From Thermovibrio guaymasensis (lineage in GTDB: Bacteria; Aquificota; Aquificia; Desulfurobacteriales; Desulfurobacteriaceae): a stretch of 64,000 nucleotides of DNA. Of the stretch, positions 10,848-28,705 are shown piece after piece. Position 1 is the stretch's first letter. The number at the start of each line of letters is the position of its first letter. A model generated the notes under the pieces. It was not told the DNA's origin. It did not search any database and saw only the letters and a program-made list of their open reading frames with translations. Position numbers and translations under genes: made by a program. The stretch covers positions 372,001-436,000 of the forward strand of contig NZ_RBIE01000001.1 of the NCBI RefSeq assembly GCF_003633715.1, in the 5' to 3' direction.

Positions 10848-12044
10848 TTAGTATTCTGCTCCTTCAAGCTCTCTCTTGATTGATTCGGGAGAGATCTTGA
10901 AGAGGAACATCTTGTAAACCCAAGCCTGGTAAGCAATTACGATTGGTGTGAAGATTAATGCTGCAACGAGCATGACCGTTAGTGTAAGGTGGCTTGAAGC
11001 ACCGTTGTAGATTGTGATGGAGTGTTCAAGTCCAAGGCTTGAAGGAACTGCAAGGGGGTAAGCTCCAAACATAACTGCAAAACCAGCAAAGAGGAAAGTA
11101 AGTGTTGAGAAGAGGAAAGCTTTAGCTCCATTTACTGCCTTGACTGCAAGGAGCCAGCCTACGGCAGATAGAGCAGCAAGAACGATAAGAACGAGCTCTA
11201 TTACTGGGAATCTGAAAAGTGCATGGTGGAGAACACCGTTGCTGTCAATCATGCTTGCAATTTGCTTGAACATATCAGGTGGAAGTTGGAGGTACTTTTG
11301 GGCAAGTTCAGGATTTTCTACTTTGAATGAGATTGTGTAGGCAAGGCCTGTGCAGACAACGTACATGATTACAAAGGGAAGCCATACCTTTAAACCTATG
11401 TTCCTTGCCCTTTCAGCAATACTTCCTTCAGTTTTCCACAGGAGCCATGAGACTCCGTGCATTATTATGAAGAGAACTGTTGCAATTCCAACGAGGATTC
11501 CAAAGAGTCCGTGGAAAGTAAATGGATTAACGAGGTTAATAAAGCTTATCGGGAACTTCTCAGCGTAAACGAACCCGAGGAGTTCATTTCCTTCAATTGC
11601 CATGTTCTTAATTGGAAGGCCTGCAAGGATGTTTCCAATAGCGACTCCGATTAAGAGGGCAACGACGAAGGATGACCAGAAGATGCTCTGATCCCAGAAC
11701 TTCCTCCAGCCTTCACTCTCCTCTTTACTCCTGAACTCAAAGGATACCGCCCTGTATATTAGGGCAAGTAAAACTACAAAGAGGGCTATGTAGAGAGAGC
11801 TAAATAGAGCTGCGTAGAGCTCGGGGAAAGCAGCAAAAGCTGCACCGCCTGCAGTGATGAACCAAACCTCGTTTCCGTCCCAGACGGGACCTATTGCGTT
11901 AATGTTTACTCTTCTCTCAATGTCTGTCTTTGCTACGAAGAGGTGGAGGATTCCCACCCCAAGGTCAAAACCGTCTGTAACTATATAACCGGCAATTAGT
12001 ATAGTAACCAGTATCGCCCAAATAGTCTGTAAGTCAAAGTGCAT
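10848..12044 (-). CDS. cydB: cytochrome bd oxidase subunit II
   Basis: 398 residues, many hydrophobic segments. The N-terminal I-A-G-Y-I-V-T-D-G-F-D-L-G-V-G stretch and the G-P-V-W-D-G-N-E-V-W motif (residues about 52-61) are diagnostic of CydB. With CydA it forms the quinol oxidase reducing oxygen to water at very low oxygen levels. In a hydrogen-dependent anaerobe or microaerophile its likely job is oxygen removal. It follows cydA by 15 bp and precedes the CydX-like gene. Confidence 0.97.
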   Translation of the reverse strand: MHFDLQTIWAILVTILIAGYIVTDGFDLGVGILHLFVAKTDIERRVNINAIGPVWDGNEVWFITAGGAAFAAFPELYAALFSSLYIALFVVLLALIYRAVSFEFRSKEESEGWRKFWDQSIFWSSFVVALLIGVAIGNILAGLPIKNMAIEGNELLGFVYAEKFPISFINLVNPFTFHGLFGILVGIATVLFIIMHGVSWLLWKTEGSIAERARNIGLKVWLPFVIMYVVCTGLAYTISFKVENPELAQKYLQLPPDMFKQIASMIDSNGVLHHALFRFPVIELVLIVLAALSAVGWLLAVKAVNGAKAFLFSTLTFLFAGFAVMFGAYPLAVPSSLGLEHSITIYNGASSHLTLTVMLVAALIFTPIVIAYQAWVYKMFLFKISPESIKRELEGAEY

Positions 12045-12059
12045 AATCCACCTCCTCCA

Positions 12060-13460
12060 TTAGTAAAGTTCTGCTTCTTTCTCTGGTCCTTTTGTGGCGA
12101 ACTTGGCAAGCAGGTAGAAGTCTGCGATTGCAAGTCCGGTGAAAGTAAGGGCGAAGAGGATGTAAGTGATTATTACCTCAACGTTTGTAAGTGGTGAAAC
12201 GGCTTGGGCTGTTTTAAGTCCGATTTCAGGCATAAGGATTTTTCCGTAGTCATCGGTGAGAGGGTAGACTATCCAAGGCTGTCTTCCAACTTCAGCTGTT
12301 GCCCATCCTAACCAGCATGCAATGTATGGAAGGGGAAGTGAGTAAAGGGCAACCTTCAAGAAACCATTAGCGTTCTCAAGGTCTTTGTATTTCATAAGTC
12401 CCCAGATGAAGAGGAGCACAAAGAAGAAGCCTAAGTAAACCATTATGTGGAATGCCCAGAAGACGAAGTTTACAGGTGGAATGTAGTTTCCTGGGCCAAA
12501 CTTTGCTTCAAACATCTTCTGAAGTTCCTTTGCTCCAAGGAGCTTACCGTTAAAGTCGTGGGTTGCAAGGAATGAAAGGAGTCCTGGAATTGGAAGGGGA
12601 ATCTCAACTACGTTCTTCTGGGCTTTTTCGTCGGCCCATGCTGCAAGGAGGATTGAGGCTCCTTCCTTTGTTTCCCAGAGGGCTTCCATAGCAGCAAGTT
12701 TTGTAGGCTGGGTTTTAGCTACTTCGTGAGCGTGAATGTCGCCGATGATAACTTCACCTACTGAAGCTATGAGTCCGAAGATTAAAGCTATGTAAGCAGA
12801 CTTTTTGAAGAATTCAACGTTCTGTTTTTTGAGGAGGTGGTAAGCACTTACAGAGAGGACGAAGATTGCAGAAAGAACCATTCCTGCAGTTGCAGTGTGC
12901 CAGAACTTAACGTCTGCAACTGGGTTAAATACGACTGCCCACCAGTCGGTCATAACAGCTCTTTTACCGGCTGCTGCCATTTCAACTTCTGCTCCGGTTG
13001 GGTGCTGCATCCAGCCGTTAGCAACTAGAATCCAGAGAGCAGATAGGTTTGAGCCGATAGATGAAAGCCACGCAGCAAGAAGGTGAACGGCCTTTGGAAC
13101 CCTGTCCCAACCAAAGAGGAATACTCCCATGAAGGTTGACTCCATGAAGAATGCAAGGAGACCTTCAATGGCAAGTGGAGCTCCAAAAATGTCTCCAACG
13201 AACCTTGAGTAAACAGACCAGTTCATACCGAACTCAAACTCGTGAACCAGACCTGTAGCAACTCCGAGGGCGAAGTTAATAGCAAAGAGCTTTGACCAGA
13301 ACTTGGCCATGTCCCTGTAGATCTCTTTGCCGGTTGCGTAGTGGAGAGTTAACATAAGTGCAGATAAGGTTGACAGCCCTAGAGTTAAAGGAACGAAGAT
13401 AAAGTGGAAGAAGGCTGTCATCGCGAACTGCAGTCGCGATACCAGTAGTACGAAGTCCAT
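12060..13460 (-). CDS. cydA: cytochrome bd oxidase subunit I
   Basis: 466 residues, nine or so membrane segments. Histidine 19 (TAFFHFIFVP) matches the heme b595 ligand position of Escherichia coli CydA. The quinol-site and heme region motif AEVGRQPWIVYPL is present. The length is about 55 residues below the E. coli protein, fitting the short Q-loop class. First gene of the minus-strand cyd operon; the ATG follows GGGAGG by 7 bases, with a recognisable promoter upstream. Confidence 0.97.
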   Translation of the reverse strand: MDFVLLVSRLQFAMTAFFHFIFVPLTLGLSTLSALMLTLHYATGKEIYRDMAKFWSKLFAINFALGVATGLVHEFEFGMNWSVYSRFVGDIFGAPLAIEGLLAFFMESTFMGVFLFGWDRVPKAVHLLAAWLSSIGSNLSALWILVANGWMQHPTGAEVEMAAAGKRAVMTDWWAVVFNPVADVKFWHTATAGMVLSAIFVLSVSAYHLLKKQNVEFFKKSAYIALIFGLIASVGEVIIGDIHAHEVAKTQPTKLAAMEALWETKEGASILLAAWADEKAQKNVVEIPLPIPGLLSFLATHDFNGKLLGAKELQKMFEAKFGPGNYIPPVNFVFWAFHIMVYLGFFFVLLFIWGLMKYKDLENANGFLKVALYSLPLPYIACWLGWATAEVGRQPWIVYPLTDDYGKILMPEIGLKTAQAVSPLTNVEVIITYILFALTFTGLAIADFYLLAKFATKGPEKEAELY

Positions 13461-18888: not shown

Positions 18889-19956
18889 TTGGAATTCCAC
18901 ATAGATAGGGCAAAGGTCCTTCCTAAGGCTAATGTTTGGGAGTTCCTTGAGGGGTTAAAGAGGCGCTTTAAGCTGATAGCCCCTGTAAAAGAGGGGGAAA
19001 AGTGCTCATATAAAGAGATCTCCGATGTAACTACCGTTGAGTTAAGCTATACGAGAACGGTTCTACCTCCGAAAAAGTACCTCCTTCCCTACAGAAGGGA
19101 GAGGTTCTCTTATAACCCTGAAACTATGGAGTTTAAAACTTTTAACTCTATCCAGGAGCAAGTAATCTTTGGAGTTCACTCCTGTGACCTTCATGGAATT
19201 TCAATACTTGATTCAGTCTACCTAAAGGAAAACCCCGACCCCCGCTATTTAGAGGTCAGGAAGAAAACGATCCTCATCGGACTTTCCTGCTATCCAGATG
19301 AGTACTGTTTTTGCCTTTCAACTGGAACGGCCTTTCCGGACGGGGCAAACTGGGATCTTTTCCTAACTGATATAGGGGCTGATTACTTCGTTTCAATTGG
19401 GAGCCCTAAGGGGGACGAGATAGTTCTTACCTTAAAGAACCTATTTAGAGAAATTGAAAAGGAGGACTTGGAGCTCTACAAAAGGAGTACCCGTAAGAAG
19501 AAAGAAGCTTTTAATAGAAAGGAGCTTCCCGACCTTGAAAGGATTTCCCAGTTAATTGAGCTTGAGTACGACTCTCCGGTTTGGGAAGAGGAAGCTAAGA
19601 AGTGTTTAGGTTGCGGAACGTGTACTAACGTATGCCCTACCTGCTTCTGCTATACCAGCGTTGATATTCCCGACTTAGAAGGGAAAGAGGTTAAGAGGGT
19701 AGAGTTTGTTACTTCCTGTCAGTATCCTTACTACTCCTTGGTTGCAGGTGGACACTACTTTAAGCCGACAAGGACTTCCCGCTTTAGGCACCGTTATTAC
19801 CACAAGTTTGTTGGCTTCCCTTACCAGGTTGAGAAGTTAGGCTGTGTCGGCTGTGGAAGGTGCAGTTCAGAGTGTCCAGCCGAAATAAGCATAGTGAGGA
19901 CTATTAAGAAGTTGAGAGGAACGGATGAAAAAGAGCTTAGAGAAGCTGTTAAATAA
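18889..19956 (+). CDS. hydB: soluble hydrogenase beta subunit (Fe-S, sulfhydrogenase type)
   Basis: 355 residues from TTG behind GGGAGGAG. The C-terminal third has two four-cysteine Fe-S motifs: CLGCGTCTNVCPTCFC (about residues 238-253) and CVGCGRCSSECP (about 323-334). The N-terminal part contains FGVHSCDLHGI, as in the beta subunits of archaeal sulfhydrogenase and anaerobic sulfite reductase A. It passes electrons between the small subunit and the flavin subunit. Gene order beta-gamma-delta-alpha is that of the Pyrococcus-type group 3b enzyme. The 3' end overlaps hydG by 32 bp. Confidence 0.9.
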   Translation: MEFHIDRAKVLPKANVWEFLEGLKRRFKLIAPVKEGEKCSYKEISDVTTVELSYTRTVLPPKKYLLPYRRERFSYNPETMEFKTFNSIQEQVIFGVHSCDLHGISILDSVYLKENPDPRYLEVRKKTILIGLSCYPDEYCFCLSTGTAFPDGANWDLFLTDIGADYFVSIGSPKGDEIVLTLKNLFREIEKEDLELYKRSTRKKKEAFNRKELPDLERISQLIELEYDSPVWEEEAKKCLGCGTCTNVCPTCFCYTSVDIPDLEGKEVKRVEFVTSCQYPYYSLVAGGHYFKPTRTSRFRHRYYHKFVGFPYQVEKLGCVGCGRCSSECPAEISIVRTIKKLRGTDEKELREAVK

Positions 19957-20806
19957 GCCCCTTCCTGCTGATCCGTTTTTACCCCAGAAGGTAGTTATAA
20001 CCGATGTGGAGGAGCTAGCTCCTGAACATAAGAAGTTCACCTTCTCATTCCTTGAACCTAGCTCCTGCGAGAGGTGGAACCACATTCCCGGCCAGTTTGT
20101 AATGCTTACTGTACCTAAGGCCGGAGAGATACCGATTTCTATCTGTTCGTCCCCAACGAGGAAAGGTGTTATAGAGCTTACAGTTAGAAAAGTTGGTAGG
20201 AAGACGGAGGTTCTCCACTCCTTAGGCCCTGGAAGCGTAGTTGCACTGAGAGGACCTTACGGTAACGGTTTTCCGATTGGAATTATGGAAAACCACAACG
20301 TTTTGATAATAGCCGGAGGTTTAGGTATAGCTCCACTTCGCTCTTTAATCTGGTACATCCTTGATAGACGCCATCTCTTTAAGGAAGTTTACCTCCTCTA
20401 CGGAACGAGGAACTACTCCTCTGTTCTCTATAAAGATGAGCTCTCCAGGCTTAAGGAGAGGAAGGATATAAAGTGCCTTTACATCCTTGATAGGTTGGAG
20501 ACTCCCGAGGATGAGGAGTGGAGCCAGGGAAGGGAAGGACTCATTACGGATCTTATCCCTGAAGTTTCCCTTGAGCCGAAAGAGACTTACGTTGCCGTGT
20601 GCGGTCCGCCCATTGCTTATAAGTTCATAGGGAAAGAGCTCTTGAAAAATGGTTATCCTGAAAGCCAAATTTTCGTTTCTCTAGAGAGGAAAATGGAGTG
20701 TGGCATCGGTAAGTGTGGCCACTGTCAAATTGGATACAAGTTTGCCTGCGTTGATGGTCCAATTTTCCCTCTGTGGGATACAAAAAACCTTCCGGAGATG
20801 ATTTAG
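19925..20806 (+). CDS. hydG: soluble hydrogenase gamma subunit (FAD/NAD(P)-binding)
   Basis: 293 residues of the ferredoxin-NADP reductase superfamily. An FAD-binding beta barrel (QFVMLTVPKAGEIPISIC) is followed by an NAD(P) domain with IIAGGLGIAPLRSL and VAVCGPP. The C-terminal CGIGKCGHCQIG ... C motif binds a [2Fe-2S] cluster as in dihydroorotate dehydrogenase electron-transfer subunits. It is the site where NAD(P)+ is reduced with electrons from hydrogen, or the reverse. It ends exactly where hydD begins. Confidence 0.92.
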   Translation: MKKSLEKLLNKPLPADPFLPQKVVITDVEELAPEHKKFTFSFLEPSSCERWNHIPGQFVMLTVPKAGEIPISICSSPTRKGVIELTVRKVGRKTEVLHSLGPGSVVALRGPYGNGFPIGIMENHNVLIIAGGLGIAPLRSLIWYILDRRHLFKEVYLLYGTRNYSSVLYKDELSRLKERKDIKCLYILDRLETPEDEEWSQGREGLITDLIPEVSLEPKETYVAVCGPPIAYKFIGKELLKNGYPESQIFVSLERKMECGIGKCGHCQIGYKFACVDGPIFPLWDTKNLPEMI

Positions 20807-21568
20807 ATGGTGAAAATAGGAGTTATTGGTCTAACGGGATGTTCAGGTTGTCAGTGCGAAATACTTAATTGTCAAGATGCCCTTTTGAAGTTGCTTTCAA
20901 AGGTTGAGATTTCCCTCTTTCCCCTTGCAAAGGATGACAACTTAGAGGATGAGCTTGACCTCTTATTCGTTGAGGGGTCAGTTTCAACGTCCCTTGACAG
21001 GGATTGGCTTTTGAGACTTAGGGAGAGGACAAAGGTCCTCGTTGCTGTTGGTTCCTGTGCCTGCTACGGGGGAGTCCAAGCCCAGAGGAACGATGAAGTT
21101 CAGATTGAGGAGATGGTAAAAGAGGTTTACGGTAGTTGGAAACTTCCTTTTGAGGTCTTTAAGCCCTCTCCCGTTTCTGAGTTTGTAAAAGTTGATTACT
21201 TCCTACCTGGGTGTCCTTTAGATAAAAAGCAGTTTGTCTATACTGTTTCATTTCTTCTTAACGGGGTCAAGCCTTTCTTTCCAAAGATTCCCGTCTGTCA
21301 TGAGTGTAAACTTTCGGAGAACGAGTGTCTCCTTTTAAAGGGAATTCCTTGTCAAGGGCCCGTTACTTATGCTGGGTGTGGAGCTCCCTGCACTTCAAAG
21401 GGAGTAGGATGCCAGGGCTGTAGGGGGGACTGTGACTTTCCAAACCACGAGGAGATTATCTCCATACTTACAAAGAAAGGACTTTCCTACGAAGATGCCC
21501 TTAAGTTCTTGAAGGTCTTTAGAGGGAATACCTTCAGAGTGAGGAGAGTAGATGAAAAAGGAGCTTAA
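20807..21568 (+). CDS. hydD: soluble hydrogenase delta (small) subunit
   Basis: 253 residues. The proximal cluster motif is TGCSGCQCE (C12, C15), followed by VAVGSCACYGG and a FLPGCPLDK cysteine. The C-terminal region has further cysteines (VCHECKLSENEC, CQGPVTYAGCG, GCQGCRGDC) expected for medial and distal [4Fe-4S] clusters. It channels electrons from the Ni-Fe site of the alpha subunit to HydB/HydG. It overlaps the alpha gene by 17 bp. No signal peptide, so the enzyme is cytoplasmic. Confidence 0.95.
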   Translation: MVKIGVIGLTGCSGCQCEILNCQDALLKLLSKVEISLFPLAKDDNLEDELDLLFVEGSVSTSLDRDWLLRLRERTKVLVAVGSCACYGGVQAQRNDEVQIEEMVKEVYGSWKLPFEVFKPSPVSEFVKVDYFLPGCPLDKKQFVYTVSFLLNGVKPFFPKIPVCHECKLSENECLLLKGIPCQGPVTYAGCGAPCTSKGVGCQGCRGDCDFPNHEEIISILTKKGLSYEDALKFLKVFRGNTFRVRRVDEKGA

Positions 21569-22850
21569 CGTTAATCACTTAACTAGGGTTGAGGGACACG
21601 GAGCGGTAGATATAGTTATTGAGAATTCAAGGCTTTCTGAAATCAGGTTAAGGTTTGCTGAAGGTCCTAGGTTCTTTGAAGTTATAACCAAAGATAGGCT
21701 CTATACTGAGATACCAAAAATAGTTTCTAGGATCTGCGGAATCTGTTACGTTTCCCACAGGCTGGCCGCTGTTTTTGCCATTGAAGATGCCTTTAGGGTT
21801 AAGGTAAACAGAGGGATTGAACTTTTAAGGAGTTTGTTAACCGTTGGGGAATTCTTGGAGAGCCACTCCCTTCACATTTACTTCCTTGCCCTTCCTGACT
21901 ACATGGGGTACCCGTCAACTTTGGCTATGGTTAAAGATTACCCGAACGTGGTAAAGAGGGGTTTTAAGCTGAAGGAAGTTGGAAACAGGATAATGAAGTT
22001 AATCGGCGGTAAAACTGTTCACGGTGAGAATATACTAGTTGGCGGTTTTGCCTCTATTCCTTCTCGGGAGGAGTTAGAGGAGGTAGGAAGGAGCCTTTTA
22101 AAGTTAATACCTGAGATTGAATCTACCTTATTCTTTCTTGACGGCCTTGAGTATCCGGAGTTTGAGTCTTCCCACGAGATGGAAATGTGCCTTAATTCGC
22201 CATCTCCTTCACTCTTTTCTTCAGAGGTTTCCCTTTCCGATGGAACAAATTTCACAAAGAGGGAGTATGAACTCTTTGTAAGAGAGGAGGTATCCCCTTA
22301 CAGTACCGCAAAAGTTTCAAAGGTAAAAGGAAAGCCTTTCTTAATAGGCCCTCTTGCAAGGGTTAACAGGCTTGAACTTCACCCGAAGGTTCTGGAATTA
22401 ACAAAGAGGTTGAAACACTCTTTCCCTTCTAAAAACAGCCACTTGGCAAACCTTGCAAGGGCAGTTGAGCTCCTTGATGTTGCTTACAGGGGAGTTGAGT
22501 TTGTTGAAGAGCTCCTTTCTCTCTATCCTTTTGAGCCTACGGTTGAGGTTAATCCGAGGGAAGGAACAGGTTTTGGAGTTAAAGAAGCTCCAAGGGGAAC
22601 TCTCTACCACAAGTACACCTTTGATTCAAAGGGAAGGTGTATCGGAGCAAACATAATAACTCCGACTGCTCAGCTTCAGTCTGTAATTGAGGATGATTTA
22701 AGGGCTCTTGTTGAAACGAGTCTTGATAGTGAAGATTCAGAGATTAAGAAGAGAGCTGAGGTCCTTATAAGGGCTTACGATCCGTGAATTGCCTGTGCAG
22801 TCCACCAGTTTGGTGGAGAGTTTGAGACTGTAAGGGTTATAAGGAGATAG
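21552..22850 (+). CDS. hydA: soluble hydrogenase alpha (large) subunit with selenocysteine at UGA ([NiFeSe])
   Basis: The frame from ATG 21552 has the L1 motif RICGIC (C62, C65) and runs to ...RAYDP followed by TGA at 22785-22787. The TGA stands exactly where the first cysteine of the family's C-terminal motif DPCxxCxxH belongs. The same frame continues IACAVH, completing the motif, then 14 more residues to TAG at 22848. Read with selenocysteine 412 the protein has 432 residues, with ligands U412 and C415 and the expected maturation-protease cut after H418. A 7 bp hairpin begins 13 bases after TGA. A chance nonsense mutation would be unlikely to leave the rest of the motif and the tail intact. 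The next gene's ribosome site overlaps the TAG, so the true end is 22850. Confidence 0.9.
22801..22817 (+). promoter_or_regulatory. bacterial-type SECIS hairpin of hydA
   Basis: TCCACCA-GTT-TGGTGGA, a perfect 7 bp stem with a small loop. Opening the closing A-U pair gives a 6 bp stem and the loop AGUUU. It begins 13 bases after the UGA and its loop G is 21 bases past it. Bacterial SECIS elements need a short stem-loop inside the coding region just after UGA, with a G in the first two loop positions; both conditions are met. SelB would bind it to deliver Sec-tRNA. Confidence 0.75.
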
Positions 22851-22852
22851 AC

Positions 22853-23323
22853 GTGGTAGAAAGGTGTAGGCTCTTTAGTGACTTTTCTCCCATTGAGAAG
22901 GGAACGCTGTCTGGAGTTTTAATCCCGGTCTCTTTTAGTAAAGGTGAAATACTCTTTGATGAATTTCAGGAGGCCGATTCAGTTTACTTCATTATGGAGG
23001 GAAGTGTTGGCCTTTACAGGAGCGATAACTTCGGAAGGTGGACTAAAGTTGCCCTTATTTATAAGGGAACTCCTTTAGGGGAGTGTGCCTTCTTTTTAAA
23101 CGCTCCTCACTCATTAAGGGCTGTTGCTGAAAGCCCCGTTAAGGCTTTGAAAATCACTAAAGAGGGAGCTGAAAGCTTAAAGAGAGAAGCTCCGAAAGTT
23201 TATGCAAAGTTGGTTGAAAAGCTCGTTTCTGTTATGGCGGAGAGGTTGAAATCTTCAGACTTTAAGTTCTCACAAATCTGCGGATTTTTCTCCGTTCCAG
23301 GAGGAGGTAGATGGAAAAGGTAG
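22853..23323 (+). CDS. stand-alone cyclic-nucleotide-binding-type domain protein
   Basis: 156 residues from GTG with AAGGAG six bases upstream. The sequence follows the Crp-type effector domain: F-S-D-F-S-P-I-E-K, FSKGEILFDEFQEADSVYFI, a phosphate-binding-cassette-like GECAFFLNAPHSLRAVAE with one arginine, then a long helix (about residues 110-135). There is no C-terminal helix-turn-helix; the protein ends SVPGGGRWKR, overlapping echA by 13 bp. It lies between the two hydrogenases, so it is probably a regulatory or structural partner of one of them and not a DNA-binding regulator. Confidence 0.8.
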   Translation: MVERCRLFSDFSPIEKGTLSGVLIPVSFSKGEILFDEFQEADSVYFIMEGSVGLYRSDNFGRWTKVALIYKGTPLGECAFFLNAPHSLRAVAESPVKALKITKEGAESLKREAPKVYAKLVEKLVSVMAERLKSSDFKFSQICGFFSVPGGGRWKR

Positions 23324-25170
23324 TGGGAGCTCTAGTTCTAGTTCCTTGGCTGCTGGCCCTTTTAGTCTTCATTTCACCCTGGCATAGGGTTAGGCAGTTC
23401 TTTACTTTCCTTTCACTTCCTATACTGACTTTTCTTACCTATAGAGTTTCAGCTGGGAACTTACCTCTTTTGGTTGAAACTCCAAACTGGTTAAACGGTT
23501 TTGTTACCCTTTACGACTTTCTCCTCCTTTTCTACTTCCTTTATCAAGGTTTAAAGTTTAGGAACTTTTTAGTTTCAGTTCTCTCTCTCTTCCAGCTCTT
23601 TCTACTTGTATGGGTTTTAAAAGTCCTTCCCCACAAGGAGGGGGCGGAGCTCTTAGTTGATAGGCTGACCGTCTTTATGTACTGGATTGTTGCAACCGTT
23701 GGAACTTTAATTGCCTTTTACGCTACCAAGTACATGGAGCAGGAGGACTTAAGTAGGGAGAACAGGTTCGTTTCAGTTCTCCTTTGGTTCTTGGGAGTTA
23801 TGAACTTTGCAGTTTCCGTTAATAACCTGGAGTGGTTCTTTGCACTCTTTGAGACCACGACCCTTGCCTCTTACGTCCTGATCAGGTTCAGGTGGGATGA
23901 GATTTCAATTAAAAATGCCCTAAGGGCTCTCTGGATGAACCAGATCGGTGGAGTTGCTATCCTCCTGGCAATCCTGTTTGCAGTTAAGTACTACGGAGTT
24001 TACAGGTTTACAGAGATTCTCTCAATGAAGGGACATTTAGTTTCTATGGTTCCCTTGAGCTTCCTGGCAATTTCAGCTTTAGTTAAAGGGGCTCAGCTTC
24101 CCTTCCACAGGTGGCTTTTAGGGGCAATGGTTGCTCCTACTCCCGTTAGTGCAATTCTCCACTCTGCAACTATGGTAAAGATTGCTCCTTACTTAATTTT
24201 GAGGCTCTCTCCCGTAATTAAGGGGACCCTTCTGGCTAAACTTTTGATTATCACAACAGGTTTCGTTTTCGTTTCTGCGGGCCTTTTGGCCCTTACCCAG
24301 AGTAACTTTAAGAAGATACTTGCCTATTCGACAATTTCCCTCCTTGGCCTTATGATGTTAACCGGTTCAATGGGAAGTCCTACCGCCGTTTTGGCCTCTC
24401 TCCTTCTAATTCTCTTCCACGCCGTTGTAAAGGCCCTCCTCTTTATGGAAGCCGGAGTTATGGAGAAGTTGTTTAAGGCTAAATATATAGAGGATATAAA
24501 GAGGCTTGTGGAGAGAGCTCCAGTAACGGTTCTCTTTATCTCCATAGGCTTTATGAGTATGACCATAGTCCCTTACGGTATTTTTGTTGCAAAGTGGTTA
24601 ACTATTGAGGAAGCATCAAACTTCCTCTCCCACGGGGCTTACATCAGTTCAATAATCTTCGTTGCAATCGGCGGAGTAATCCTTTCACTCCTTTACTTTA
24701 AGGTAATAGGGGTTATGACCAGAAAGAGGGAGGAGTTCGTTAGGTTTAGACTGGAGAGGCTTCCATTTGTTTACCTGTTTTCAACCGTTCCTTTAGTCCT
24801 GTTTACAGTTTTTGGTTCGCTTTTCATAGCCAGACTCTCAGCAGAGCTGATTAATCCGGTTGTAGCTCAGGTTGTAGGCTCTCCTGCACCTGTAAAAGCC
24901 GCTGGTCTAACCTTAATAACTGGAGTTTCAGCCCTCTACGGCTGGCAGATAATAGGTGCCTTCCTCCTTCTCCTCATTGTTCCTATTCTTGCCTACTTTG
25001 TTCACTTTTCAGGTACCGATAGGGTGTTCCCCTATACCTGTGGGGAGAGGGTAGATTTAACCCTTGGAACTTACAACTTCTTCTGCGTTTCATCCATTGA
25101 ACCCTTTGTTGAAACGGCATCAGTAGCTCTCTTCATTCTGACCCTCGTTCTTGGAGGAGGTCTAGTATGA
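23311..25170 (+). CDS. echA: Ech-like membrane hydrogenase, antiporter-type subunit A (NuoL/CooM family)
   Basis: 619 residues, about 15 hydrophobic spans. Central proton-conducting antiporter motifs are visible: YATKYMEQED near residue 135, ALVKGAQLPFHRWLLGAMVAPTPVSAILHSATMVK (lysine and histidines of the channel), and LLILFHAVVKALLFMEAG. It would couple hydrogenase turnover to ion translocation. It is the first gene of an echABCDE(cyt)F series in the same order as the Ech hydrogenase cluster and the related carbon monoxide-linked Coo enzyme. It overlaps both neighbours. Confidence 0.9.
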   Translation: MEKVVGALVLVPWLLALLVFISPWHRVRQFFTFLSLPILTFLTYRVSAGNLPLLVETPNWLNGFVTLYDFLLLFYFLYQGLKFRNFLVSVLSLFQLFLLVWVLKVLPHKEGAELLVDRLTVFMYWIVATVGTLIAFYATKYMEQEDLSRENRFVSVLLWFLGVMNFAVSVNNLEWFFALFETTTLASYVLIRFRWDEISIKNALRALWMNQIGGVAILLAILFAVKYYGVYRFTEILSMKGHLVSMVPLSFLAISALVKGAQLPFHRWLLGAMVAPTPVSAILHSATMVKIAPYLILRLSPVIKGTLLAKLLIITTGFVFVSAGLLALTQSNFKKILAYSTISLLGLMMLTGSMGSPTAVLASLLLILFHAVVKALLFMEAGVMEKLFKAKYIEDIKRLVERAPVTVLFISIGFMSMTIVPYGIFVAKWLTIEEASNFLSHGAYISSIIFVAIGGVILSLLYFKVIGVMTRKREEFVRFRLERLPFVYLFSTVPLVLFTVFGSLFIARLSAELINPVVAQVVGSPAPVKAAGLTLITGVSALYGWQIIGAFLLLLIVPILAYFVHFSGTDRVFPYTCGERVDLTLGTYNFFCVSSIEPFVETASVALFILTLVLGGGLV

Positions 25171-26003
25171 CTCTTGCTTTAGTCCTCACTCTCCTTTCTC
25201 CCATTATAGGCGGTTTCGTTTACGGTTTTGAGAGGATTTTAAGGGCAAGGATGCAGGGAAGGGTCGGTCCTCCACTCCTACAGCCCTTTTATGACTTCTT
25301 TAAGCTCTTAGAGAAGAGGAGTTTAATAGTTCACTCTTTCCACGCCTTTATGGGAATTATGTATCTACTTGGAACCTGGTTTTCCCTCTACGTTCTCCTT
25401 TCAGGCGGTGACATTCTGGTTGCTATATTCTTCCACCTATTGTCCCTTGCCTTCTTGGTTGTCGGAGGTTTCAGCGTTCGTTCTCCCTACTCCATCATCG
25501 GTTCAATGAGGGAGCTCCTCCATATGGTGGCCTACGAGCCGGTTTTCGTCCTTGCTGCTGCGGGGCTTTACCTTGTAACCGGTACCTTTCAGGTTTCTGA
25601 GATCCTTCACTCTGACCAACTTCCCATCCTTTATGTTCCGCTTGTCTTCCTGTCTCTCCTCTTGGCACTTCCATCTGTCTTGAAGAAATCTCCCTTTGAC
25701 CTTTCGGAAGCTCACCAGGAGATAATAGGCGGACCTGAGATTGAGTACTCGGGTAAGTACTACGAGGCGGTTTATACTGCAAAGTGGATTGAGTACGTCT
25801 ATGCTTTCTTCTTCGTCTTCCTATTTGCAGGTGGTAAGTGGTGGTTGGGAGCTCTCTTAGTTTTATTTTCCTTCTTTCTAGTTAACCTTATAGATAACGT
25901 TACTGCAAGGTTTAACTTCAGACAGATGGTTGCCTTTCACTGGTACATCCTAATTCCCCTTACAGTTATTAACCTTATGCTACTTGCCCTCTGGAGGAAC
26001 TGA
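25167..26003 (+). CDS. echB: Ech-like membrane hydrogenase subunit B (NuoH/CooK family)
   Basis: 278 residues, about eight membrane spans. Homologous in pattern to complex I subunit 1: GFVYGFERILRARMQGRVGPPLLQPFYDFFKL at the N-terminus and KKSPFDLSEAHQEIIGGPEIEYSGKYYE in the loop facing the Fe-S subunit. It links the hydrophilic arm to the antiporter-like subunit. ATGA overlap with echA. Confidence 0.93.
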   Translation: MTLALVLTLLSPIIGGFVYGFERILRARMQGRVGPPLLQPFYDFFKLLEKRSLIVHSFHAFMGIMYLLGTWFSLYVLLSGGDILVAIFFHLLSLAFLVVGGFSVRSPYSIIGSMRELLHMVAYEPVFVLAAAGLYLVTGTFQVSEILHSDQLPILYVPLVFLSLLLALPSVLKKSPFDLSEAHQEIIGGPEIEYSGKYYEAVYTAKWIEYVYAFFFVFLFAGGKWWLGALLVLFSFFLVNLIDNVTARFNFRQMVAFHWYILIPLTVINLMLLALWRN

Positions 26004-26005
26004 GT

Positions 26006-26530
26006 ATGGATCTAAAGAAGTTTAGGAGTAAGTCTCCCTGGCTCCTTCACTACAACACAGGAAGCTGTAACGGGTGTGACATTGAGATCCTTGCCTGTCT
26101 TGCTCCAAAGTATGACCTTGAGAGGTTCGGGATACTCAACAGGGGGAACCCGAAGCAGTCTGATGTCCTCATCGTTACCGGCCCTGTAACTAAGAGGGCG
26201 AGAGAAAGGTTGATTCGCCTCTACCTGGAGATGCCTGAACCGAAAGTGGTTGTTGCAGTTGGGGCCTGTGCCTGTACCGGCGGCGTCTTTAGGCACATGT
26301 ATAACGTTTTAAACGGTGTTGATAAGGTGATTCCCGTTGACGTCTACGTTCCCGGCTGTGCTGCAAGGCCTGAGGCGATAATAGATGGAGTTGTTAAAGC
26401 CCTTGAAATCCTTGAGAGGAAGAGAAAAGATTTTGTTCCCCCGAAAGTCTGTAAGAACCTTGAAGTTAAGGAGCCGGTCAACAGGAAGTTCTTTTTGGAA
26501 AAATGTCTGGGGGTAAAGAATGGAAGTTGA
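26006..26530 (+). CDS. echC: Ech-like membrane hydrogenase small subunit C (NuoB/CooL family)
   Basis: 174 residues. The [4Fe-4S] ligands are in NTGSCNGCDIEILAC, VAVGACACTGG and VYVPGCAARPE, matching the N2-type proximal cluster of group 4 hydrogenases and complex I. It is a cytoplasmic peripheral subunit taking electrons to or from the Ni-Fe site. Starts 2 bp after echB; overlaps echD by 11 bp. Confidence 0.95.
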   Translation: MDLKKFRSKSPWLLHYNTGSCNGCDIEILACLAPKYDLERFGILNRGNPKQSDVLIVTGPVTKRARERLIRLYLEMPEPKVVVAVGACACTGGVFRHMYNVLNGVDKVIPVDVYVPGCAARPEAIIDGVVKALEILERKRKDFVPPKVCKNLEVKEPVNRKFFLEKCLGVKNGS

Positions 26531-26864
26531 GGAGATTAAAGTTCCTCTAAGGGACGTTAGGAAAACTATTAAGGAGTTTTACGAAGAGGATAAGTGGCAC
26601 TTTATAACTGTTAACGCCGTTGACTTGGGCGGAAAGGTTGAACTAAAGTGGTTTTTCTCCCCTTACGGTGAAAAGGAACGCTTTAAGGTTGTTGTATCTG
26701 AGGTAAGCTACGACGAGGAGATTCCAACAATTACCTACCTAATTCCTTCAGCCTGGATTTCAGAGTGGGAGCTTGCAGACCTGTTTGGGCTTAACGTTGA
26801 AGGGGCGAAGACTGGTTTGTTCCTTGAGCCTGATAGTCCTAAGGCACCTTTAAGGAGAGGTTAG
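26520..26864 (+). CDS. echD: Ech-like membrane hydrogenase subunit D (NuoC/CooU family)
   Basis: 114 residues, similar to the NuoC fold: DKWHFITVNAVDLGGKVELKWFF, then TYLIPSAWISEWELADLFGLNVEGAK, the segment corresponding to the W-x-E-R-E-v-x-D-m-f-G signature of 30 kDa complex I subunits. It is a structural partner of EchE. Position inside the ech series supports the call. Confidence 0.88.
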   Translation: MEVEEIKVPLRDVRKTIKEFYEEDKWHFITVNAVDLGGKVELKWFFSPYGEKERFKVVVSEVSYDEEIPTITYLIPSAWISEWELADLFGLNVEGAKTGLFLEPDSPKAPLRRG

Positions 26865-26866
26865 AG

Positions 26867-27952
26867 ATGGGAAATAGGATAACAATTCCCTTTGGTAGTC
26901 AACACGTTGCTCTTCCAGAGCCTATAAAGTTCGTCTTTCAGACTGAGAACGAGAGGATTACTTCAGTTGAGGTTGACGTCGGTTATGTTCACAGGGGAAT
27001 AGAGAAGGCCTGTCAGACCAAGTTTAAGTACACTCAGGTTGGATACGTTGTGGCGAGGGTTTGTGGACTGTGTTCTATTTCCCACACCCTTGCTTACGTT
27101 ACGGCGGTTGAGAGGTTAATGGAAGTAGAGGTTCCAAAGAGGGCCCTTTACCTGAGGTTGATAGTTAGTGAGCTTGATAGGGTTCACTCTCACCTCCTTG
27201 CCATGGGGCACACGGCCGAGGTTGCAGGTTATGAAAACCTCTTTATGCAGACCTTCAGGTATAGAGAAACGGTTATGGAGCTCCTTGAACTTTTAACGGG
27301 AAACAGGGTTCAGTATGACTATGCCTGTATCGGTGGAGTGAACAGGGACGTAACCCCTGAGGTGGCCAAGACCCTTAAGGAGAGGTTGAAGGAGCTTAAG
27401 GAGAAGTGTCTGTGGATTAAAGATGTCTTTGAAAACGACCTTACCCTGAAGTACAGGTGGAAAGGTGTGGGGGTTGTTACAAAAGAAATGGCAAAGGAGT
27501 TTAACGTTGTCGGCCCTCCTGCAAGGGCTGCAGGCCTTGAAACCGACTGTAGGGCTGAGTTTAACTACCTACCTTTTGATGAGGTTGGCTACAAAATGGT
27601 AGTTCGGAAGGGGGGCGATATTTACGATAGGAACCTTGTCAGGGCATATGAGGTTCTAAACTCAATAGAGATGGTTGAAAACGCCCTTGACTCCCTCCCT
27701 CAGGGAGAGATAAAGGTTCCAGTTAAAGGCCTTCCCGATGGAGAGAGCTTTGTAAGGGTTGAGGCTCCAAGGGGGGAGCTCTTTTACTACGTAAAGGGTT
27801 CAAAGAAGTTGGTCCTAGATAGGGTGAGAATCAGAGTTCCCACCTTTGCAAATATCCCTGTTATGAAGGAGCTCTTTATCGGAATGGATTATTCAGACGT
27901 TCCGGCAACAGTTATCAGCTTTGACCCGTGTCTATCATGTACCGCAAGGTAG
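26867..27952 (+). CDS. echE: Ech-like membrane hydrogenase large subunit E (NuoD/CooH family)
   Basis: 361 residues. Both Ni-binding motifs are present with ordinary cysteines: RVCGLCSISHT (C66, C69) and DPCLSCTAR at the extreme C-terminus (C355, C358). The protein ends right after the arginine, so no maturation peptide needs to be removed, as in several group 4 enzymes. VGYVHRGIEKACQ matches the group 4/complex I pattern. This contrasts with the UGA-containing large subunit of the first hydrogenase in the same operon. Confidence 0.95.
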   Translation: MGNRITIPFGSQHVALPEPIKFVFQTENERITSVEVDVGYVHRGIEKACQTKFKYTQVGYVVARVCGLCSISHTLAYVTAVERLMEVEVPKRALYLRLIVSELDRVHSHLLAMGHTAEVAGYENLFMQTFRYRETVMELLELLTGNRVQYDYACIGGVNRDVTPEVAKTLKERLKELKEKCLWIKDVFENDLTLKYRWKGVGVVTKEMAKEFNVVGPPARAAGLETDCRAEFNYLPFDEVGYKMVVRKGGDIYDRNLVRAYEVLNSIEMVENALDSLPQGEIKVPVKGLPDGESFVRVEAPRGELFYYVKGSKKLVLDRVRIRVPTFANIPVMKELFIGMDYSDVPATVISFDPCLSCTAR

Positions 27953-27960
27953 GAGGAAGT

Positions 27961-28311
27961 GTGAGGTTTTTCCTTCTCCTCTTATTAGTTACTCAGGCAT
28001 TTGGTTATTCCTTTGCCTGCAGTAGTGACTGTTACCAGTGCCACACCATTCCAAAGGATAGAGACCATGAACCTATTAAGACGTGTACCAAGTGTCATGG
28101 GGAACACTCAGAAGGAGCCTTGGGGGGAAAGTGCGGGGCAGACTGTTTTGACTGTCATGATTACAGGAAAGTTTCCCGTTCTTCAAAGGCCCACAGAGTT
28201 TTAAGTAGGTGTATTGAATGCCATAAATCCTTAAAGTTGAAGAGCCTTCCTGAACCTTTAAAGGCTCTTTTAGGAGGAAGTAATGAAGGAGATGTTAATC
28301 CAGACTATTAA
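27961..28311 (+). CDS. tetraheme c-type cytochrome in the hydrogenase operon
   Basis: 116 residues from GTG 27961, which follows an AGGAGG site and gives a clean signal peptide (MRFFLLLLLVTQAFG, then YSFA). A longer frame from 27928 overlaps echE and spoils the signal. Four CxxCH sites: CYQCH (24-28), CTKCH (42-46), CFDCH (62-66) and CIECH (84-88), so four hemes c are expected outside the cytoplasmic membrane. No membrane anchor beyond the signal. It overlaps echF by 29 bp and separates echE from echF. It may carry electrons between the membrane complex and periplasmic or quinone partners. Confidence 0.85.
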   Translation: MRFFLLLLLVTQAFGYSFACSSDCYQCHTIPKDRDHEPIKTCTKCHGEHSEGALGGKCGADCFDCHDYRKVSRSSKAHRVLSRCIECHKSLKLKSLPEPLKALLGGSNEGDVNPDY

Positions 28312-28705
28312 AAACCTATTTAGCAAACCAGAAACTGTTAACTACCCTGCAGAGCCCTCCCCTACTCCTCCCGGTTATAGGGGGCTAATAGTTTACGATG
28401 AGAGCCTCTGTATCTTCTGCACTAAGTGTGAGATTGTTTGCCCTCCGGGGGCTATAAGGTTCGTTTATACTGATGAAGGGGAGAAGAAGTATAACTACAA
28501 TCCATACCTGTGTATTTACTGTGGTGAGTGTGTAAGGGCCTGTCCAAAGGCGGGAGTTCTGGTTCAGGTTGAGGAGACTGCACCTCCTGAGGTTTCCCTT
28601 CCAGACTGGGACTCTATTGAAAGGGAGGCCGATGAGAGTAAGAAGCGCTTCCTTTCACGTAAGAAAAAGAGCTTAAACCCCTCTAAGAAGAGAACTTCTC
28701 AATGA
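28283..28705 (+). CDS. echF: Ech-like membrane hydrogenase polyferredoxin subunit F (NuoI/CooX family)
   Basis: 140 residues with two [4Fe-4S] motifs, CIFCTKCEIVCPPG (about 47-60) and CIYCGECVRACPK (about 77-89), in a NuoI-like context, followed by a long lysine-rich tail. It connects the hydrogenase to soluble ferredoxin. Last gene of the operon starting at 18889. Its ATG has AGGAGGAAGTA upstream. Its 3' end overlaps the convergent small gene by 23 bp. Confidence 0.9.
   Translation: MKEMLIQTIKNLFSKPETVNYPAEPSPTPPGYRGLIVYDESLCIFCTKCEIVCPPGAIRFVYTDEGEKKYNYNPYLCIYCGECVRACPKAGVLVQVEETAPPEVSLPDWDSIEREADESKKRFLSRKKKSLNPSKKRTSQ

Follow-up and report, generated by a model that had tools for sequence, protein, structure and literature searches.

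Ech complexes are regarded as enzymes that work with ferredoxin in the cytoplasm and carry an ion-pumping arm. In Thermovibrio ammonificans HB-1 the ech set has been described, in the portion of the paper available to us, as seven genes, echABCDEFG, Theam_0476-0482 (PMC5441870), and neither Theam_0477, EchG nor heme occurs in the main text of that paper. For Desulfurobacterium thermolithotrophum HR11 the corresponding portion describes six genes (echABCDEF), whose products increase 7.8- to 15.2-fold at low H2, with hyd rising alongside ech (PMC12724263), and six ech genes have likewise been described, in the sections available, for Nautilia profundicola (PMC2628731). The Nautilia papers, in their accessible sections, mention the ech genes with no cytochrome among them (PMC2628731, PMC10092268), and in the accessible parts of the open-licence literature we recognised no treatment of an Ech-linked cytochrome of the kind analysed here.

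The window, a stretch of 64,000 nucleotides of Thermovibrio guaymasensis DNA, carries a complete operon for a group 4 Ech hydrogenase, with echA to echF in order and two membrane subunits, interrupted solely by the gene for a tetraheme cytochrome (Table 1). Both Ni-binding CxxC motifs are present in EchE, whose best solved relative is the alpha subunit of Pyrococcus MBH (6cfw_L, full-length, E 1.4e-78). The two 4Fe-4S motifs of EchF and the four conserved cysteines of EchC are kept in 19 of 19 aligned rows. Upstream of the operon lies a sulfhydrogenase-type group 3b hydrogenase set (18889-22787), and downstream are malate dehydrogenase-like and fumarase-like genes, named from their sequences. 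The preliminary description of this locus had placed an exported protein with four CxxCH sites between the large-subunit and ferredoxin genes, overlapping or abutting both, and its coordinates, strand and content are confirmed: the gene starts 9 nt after the echE stop codon (echE ends at 27952) and its last 29 nt overlap echF (echF start 28283, cytochrome end 28311).

Table 1. Features of the ech operon and of its cytochrome gene, numbered from the first letter of the window.
Feature	Positions	Strand	Basis
cNMP-binding-domain protein, 156 aa, between the group 3b genes and echA	22853..23323	+	Pfam/NCBIfam
echA, NuoL-like membrane subunit	23311..25170	+	Pfam/NCBIfam
echB, NuoH-like membrane subunit	25167..26003	+	Pfam/NCBIfam
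echC, small subunit, NuoB-like	26006..26530	+	Pfam/NCBIfam
echD, NuoC-like	26520..26864	+	Pfam/NCBIfam
echE, [NiFe] large subunit, RVCGLC and C-terminal DPCLSCTAR	26867..27952	+	sequence, Pfam/NCBIfam
AGGAGG ribosome-binding site of the cytochrome gene, overlapping the echE stop codon	27951..27956	+	sequence
Tetraheme c-type cytochrome gene, 116 aa, GTG start	27961..28311	+	ORF translation, family alignment
Signal peptide, residues 1-19	27961..28017	+	predicted cleavage before C20; type I and lipoprotein type both considered
Invariant extra Cys C20, first mature residue	28018..28020	+	51/51 family rows
Heme site 1 CYQCH, module 1	28030..28044	+	translation, family alignment
Heme site 2 CTKCH, module 1, followed by H49	28084..28098	+	translation, family alignment
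Invariant extra Cys C58, module 2 counterpart of C20	28132..28134	+	family alignment
Heme site 3 CFDCH, module 2	28144..28158	+	translation, family alignment
Heme site 4 CIECH, module 2	28210..28224	+	translation, family alignment
AGGAGG ribosome-binding site of echF, within the cytochrome gene	28272..28277	+	sequence
echF, two 4Fe-4S motifs	28283..28705	+	sequence, Pfam/NCBIfam

Other features of the surroundings deserve mention. The protein encoded directly before echA consists of a cNMP-binding domain only, and its gene overlaps echA by 13 nt. It was found at 9 of 12 other Desulfurobacteriaceae loci, being absent in G005, G006 and G010. As a gene that might accompany the cytochrome it is inconsistent, since it is absent in G010, where the cytochrome is present, and present in G008, where the cytochrome lies elsewhere. 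Further upstream the window holds cytochrome bd oxidase-like genes (10848-13460) and, at its very start, a partial gene resembling ccsA of the System II pathway for c-type cytochrome maturation (34-435) beside a hemA-like gene, all named from sequence.

The four heme sites, in a 116-residue translation that begins with a hydrophobic, export-type N-terminus (cleavage predicted), identify the protein as a c-type multiheme cytochrome. Four or more CxxCH motifs appeared in none of 20000 composition-preserving shuffles of the protein, the shuffle maximum being 2. The two halves align with each other (hhalign E 4.4e-10), which points to tandem duplication of one diheme module, and for two of four single sequences the half-against-half score was equalled in 35 and 27 of 500 shuffles with Cys and His held fixed. 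In 13 aligned members the four CxxCH sites, H36, H49, H78, C20 and C58 are invariant. Neither the duplication nor the two extra cysteines figured in the preliminary description. Across the broad family C20, C58, H36 and H78 are conserved in 51 of 51 rows, of which the extraction pattern itself required C20 and C58 (no locus failed it), and H49, by reading of the same alignment, is confined to the 27 rows on the Ech side. Class III and small tetraheme cytochromes with four bis-His hemes are expected to have four conserved distal histidines; the Ech-linked set has three and the broad family two. With four hemes and three conserved distal histidines, at least one heme should have another distal ligand or none, and C20 and C58 are candidate distal ligands judging from the alignment. 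C20 directly follows a signal-peptide-like stretch in 51 of 51 rows. A PROSITE-like lipobox pattern fits 32 of these rows, the window protein not among them, and a signal peptidase I pattern fits 29.

Against the Pfam family Cytochrom_c3_2 (PF14537) the window protein scores 21.7 bits, below the cut-off of 25, and all 13 relatives scanned match it at E <=0.01 (best 3.7e-7). Searching solved structures by sequence gave matches at the level of heme motifs only, the best being a nitrite reductase (8bcx_A, E 3.3e-7 summed over weak pieces), and an AlphaFold2 model built from 12 sequences reached a mean pLDDT of 58 and a pTM of 0.40, too poor to place the cysteines. The sole other match in the genome (L002, E 8.7e-4) resembles the cytochrome in its heme sites only and was rejected as a paralog. 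This other tetraheme gene, whose product is a NapM-like tetraheme protein, adjoins NapC-like and molybdopterin-oxidoreductase-like genes.

Within the Desulfurobacteriaceae we compared 22 genomes, including that of the window, counting EchE at 79% identity or above. EchE is present in 15 and lacking in seven, several of which are incomplete. The cytochrome occurs in 13 of the 15 Ech-bearing genomes and in none of the seven others, and its linkage to ech is kept across five genera of the family. The preliminary description had named absence or scatter among close relatives as grounds for rejecting its proposal, and these were found in part: the gene keeps its place between echE and echF in 12 of the 15 (12 of the 13 that have it), is missing from G005 and G006, and has moved in G008. 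All 12 occupied gaps are closely packed, with an overlap with echF of 29 nt at most or a spacing of 11 nt at most. In G005 and G006 echE and echF are adjacent in an intact operon, and no cytochrome was found in either genome. G008 also has adjacent echE and echF genes, and its cytochrome lies on another contig beside unrelated genes. The EchE of this genome groups with other genera of the family (95/86) and not with its own genus, and the cytochrome copy persists elsewhere; a replacement of its ech operon is possible. In the sister family (G022, G023) Ech occurs without the cytochrome.

Beyond this family, searching named genomes for EchE yielded 49 loci, of which 46 were examined for multiheme reading frames. 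All seven Desulfurobacteriaceae or Thermovibrio loci among the 49 have the cytochrome in the gap between echE and echF, and of the six that bear the label Nautiliaceae, five have a homologous tetraheme gene within the ech operon and the sixth (L059) lacks it. There the gene stands at the end of the operon. Between it and echF, the Nautiliaceae conserve a gene whose sequence resembles that of a D-2-hydroxyacid dehydrogenase (L060, L062, L063, L065, L105-L110). In a set of 120 genomes from the order to which one Nautiliaceae genome belongs, nine have EchE at 70% identity or above, seven of them with the cytochrome at the operon end, which brings the distinct operons of this type to 11 across the two sets (G044 is the genome of L060). 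The stretches read around the Hydrogenimonas locus, two Sulfurovum loci, the Sulfurospirillum locus and that of G074 contain Ech and no cytochrome, and no multiheme reading frame was found in the stretches examined at archaeal, actinobacterial and other Ech loci. On a tree of EchE, from which nine loci of lower identity were left out, six changes are required for the label "cytochrome in operon", and well-supported branches force no fewer than five of them.

The cytochrome family extends well beyond Ech. In the same order, a family member was found in 38 of the 120 genomes (E <=1e-10), 27 of which lack an EchE match at 1e-110. Thirty of the 38 contexts were read: seven are of the Nautiliaceae type within an ech operon, and the other 23 comprise 21 unrelated surroundings and two positions between hypD- and hypE-like genes. 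The latter, Campylobacterota members lying between hypD-like and hypE-like maturation genes, are L117 and L118 (1492-1872). In the Aquificota, 16 of 136 genomes match the cytochrome, namely 13 Desulfurobacteriaceae and three of another family (G247-G249), in which the gene stands alone near an hsp20-like gene. The EchE matches of these three are only about 31% identical and complex-I-like, and in G249 no hydrogenase large subunit over the Pfam cut-off was found. A phylum sample around a Pseudodesulfovibrio genome gave one weak match in 297 genomes. A Campylobacter jejuni heme lipoprotein locus was looked for in the literature and not found. In a tree of 51 members, built on 78 columns, the Desulfurobacteriaceae, the Nautiliaceae and the three stand-alone Aquificota genes fall on one side of a branch (91/84). 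From these sequences and contexts, the family appears to be one of mostly stand-alone tetraheme proteins common to Campylobacterota and Aquificota.

We hypothesise that the cytochrome is a small tetraheme carrier on the periplasmic side that works beside Ech and whose gene was taken into the ech operon so that the two are co-expressed, a reading to which we give a probability of about 0.5. The protein, with its two tandem diheme modules, would be exported, would receive its hemes outside the inner membrane and would remain on, or close to, the outer surface of this membrane. A stand-alone member of the family would have entered the ech operon once or twice in the lineage of the Desulfurobacteriaceae and Nautiliaceae, and from then on would have been made in step with Ech, possibly for the sake of that co-expression. 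Ech itself would continue to exchange electrons with cytoplasmic ferredoxin, powered by the ion gradient, and the cytochrome would most likely relay or buffer periplasmic electrons between H2- or quinol-oxidising enzymes and terminal reductases, so serving the side that maintains the gradient that Ech spends. We favour a separate carrier on account of the predicted export, the lack, to our knowledge, of a cofactor in the membrane arm of related enzymes, the lack of EchA or EchB histidines or cysteines that track the cytochrome, and the rise of a six-gene ech set at low H2 in strain HR11. Family members that stand alone elsewhere and the Ech of G005 and G006 without a cytochrome support it as well, as do the close packing of the 12 occupied gaps and the homologs that end 11 ech operons of the Nautiliaceae type. 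Counting against a free-standing carrier, the cytochrome occurs only together with Ech among the 22 Desulfurobacteriaceae genomes (13/15 versus 0/7).

The preliminary description had proposed that the cytochrome takes electrons from Ech to a periplasmic or quinone acceptor, giving an unrecognised electron exit from group 4 hydrogenases. The operon position and the conserved association with ech agree with this, and the remaining evidence makes it highly improbable. If exported, as its N-terminus predicts, the cytochrome could not meet the Fe-S clusters of EchC and EchF on the cytoplasmic side, where by family EchC, EchD, EchE and EchF reside, and we know of no cofactor in the membrane arm of MBH (6cfw) or related complexes. 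Comparing operons with and without the cytochrome, we found no histidine or cysteine of EchA or EchB, singly or as a conserved extra pair, that tracks it; nor did we find a heme or Fe-S path across the membrane. EchA H441, C577 and C592 were considered as cytochrome-specific residues and rejected, all three being kept in G005, G006, G008 and the cytochrome-less Nautiliaceae genome. H441 is conserved in the EchA of Desulfurobacteriaceae and Nautiliaceae, and this conservation does not extend to the sister family or to the remaining Campylobacterota in the comparison; C592 is present in the sister family too and, like H441, is kept where the cytochrome is missing. A connection between Ech and an outside acceptor also fits poorly with close relatives that have Ech and no cytochrome (G005, G006), with the relocated gene of G008 and the one Nautiliaceae operon without it, and with the presence of the family in genomes that lack this Ech, as in most of the Campylobacterota examined and three Aquificota of another family.

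The protein might instead sit as an accessory subunit on the outer side of the membrane arm of Ech, where it would help assembly or stability and pass no electrons to the enzyme. Its conserved place between echE and echF, with close spacing and overlaps suggestive of coupled translation, its strict co-occurrence with Ech among the 22 genomes and the linkage in a second phylum would all suit such a role. Genomes with Ech and without the cytochrome argue that it is not essential to the enzyme, and intact ech operons without it are found in G005, G006, G022, G023, one Nautiliaceae genome and several other Campylobacterota; together with family members that occur without Ech and the lack of any EchA or EchB residue that follows the cytochrome, they make this role somewhat unlikely. 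A closer tie, in which a dedicated periplasm-side partner docks on the membrane arm and couples Ech activity to the periplasmic redox state, for example by allowing use of the gradient only during periplasmic oxidation of H2 or quinol, with Cys-ligated hemes as sensors, seems to us improbable. As a sensor of redox or H2 status, or a protein for thiol or heme handling, the cytochrome would use C20 and C58 as axial ligands or as a disulfide. Both cysteines occur in all 51 family rows and occupy matching positions in the two modules, and four hemes are served by two invariant distal histidines (H36, H78) in the broad family, plus H49 on the Ech side. We recognised no signalling or thiol-redox partner beside the gene, C20 may be a simple lipid anchor, and the structural model (pLDDT 58) cannot place the cysteines; such a function is therefore decidedly improbable. 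Nor do we think it likely that a periplasmic cytochrome gene landed by chance in a well-expressed operon and was kept for a job unrelated to Ech. The many contexts of the family and the persistence in G008 of a copy apart from Ech speak for such a passenger; against it stand the linkage across five Desulfurobacteriaceae genera and the Nautiliaceae, in two different operon positions, and the absence of the cytochrome from all seven Ech-less Desulfurobacteriaceae. Its retention in the ech operons of 12 of 15 Desulfurobacteriaceae and of 11 Nautiliaceae argues that the link was selected and did not arise by chance.

That ech operons of vent autotrophs from two phyla retain a periplasmic cytochrome suggests that these organisms co-express cytoplasmic ferredoxin reduction with a specific electron carrier outside. 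If this co-expression holds, it bears on the balance between making and spending the gradient at low H2 in organisms that fix CO2 with H2. Should the cytochrome turn out to have nothing to do with Ech, the locus would be a clear example of how operon position can mislead functional guesses.

Among described systems, that of T. ammonificans HB-1, from the same genus, resembles the window in its seven-gene ech set with a cytochrome between echE and echF and in the adjoining group 3b hyd genes. Its DNA shows seven tightly packed genes, six ech genes and the cytochrome, and the seventh ech gene of that species is thus probably the cytochrome, which the portion of the paper available to us does not discuss (PMC5441870). 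D. thermolithotrophum HR11 is similar in that hyd genes adjoin its ech genes in the same orientation, and differs in having, as described in the available portion of its report, a six-gene ech set with no cytochrome in the operon (PMC12724263). N. profundicola and other Nautiliaceae have a related Ech and a homologous tetraheme cytochrome in the ech operon, placed after echF and a 2-hydroxyacid-dehydrogenase-like gene instead of in the gap between echE and echF. The protein itself resembles the small tetraheme cytochromes of Cytochrom_c3_2 (PF14537) in having four CxxCH sites within about 100 residues, and differs from them in its diheme duplication, its two extra invariant cysteines and its set of only three conserved distal histidines.
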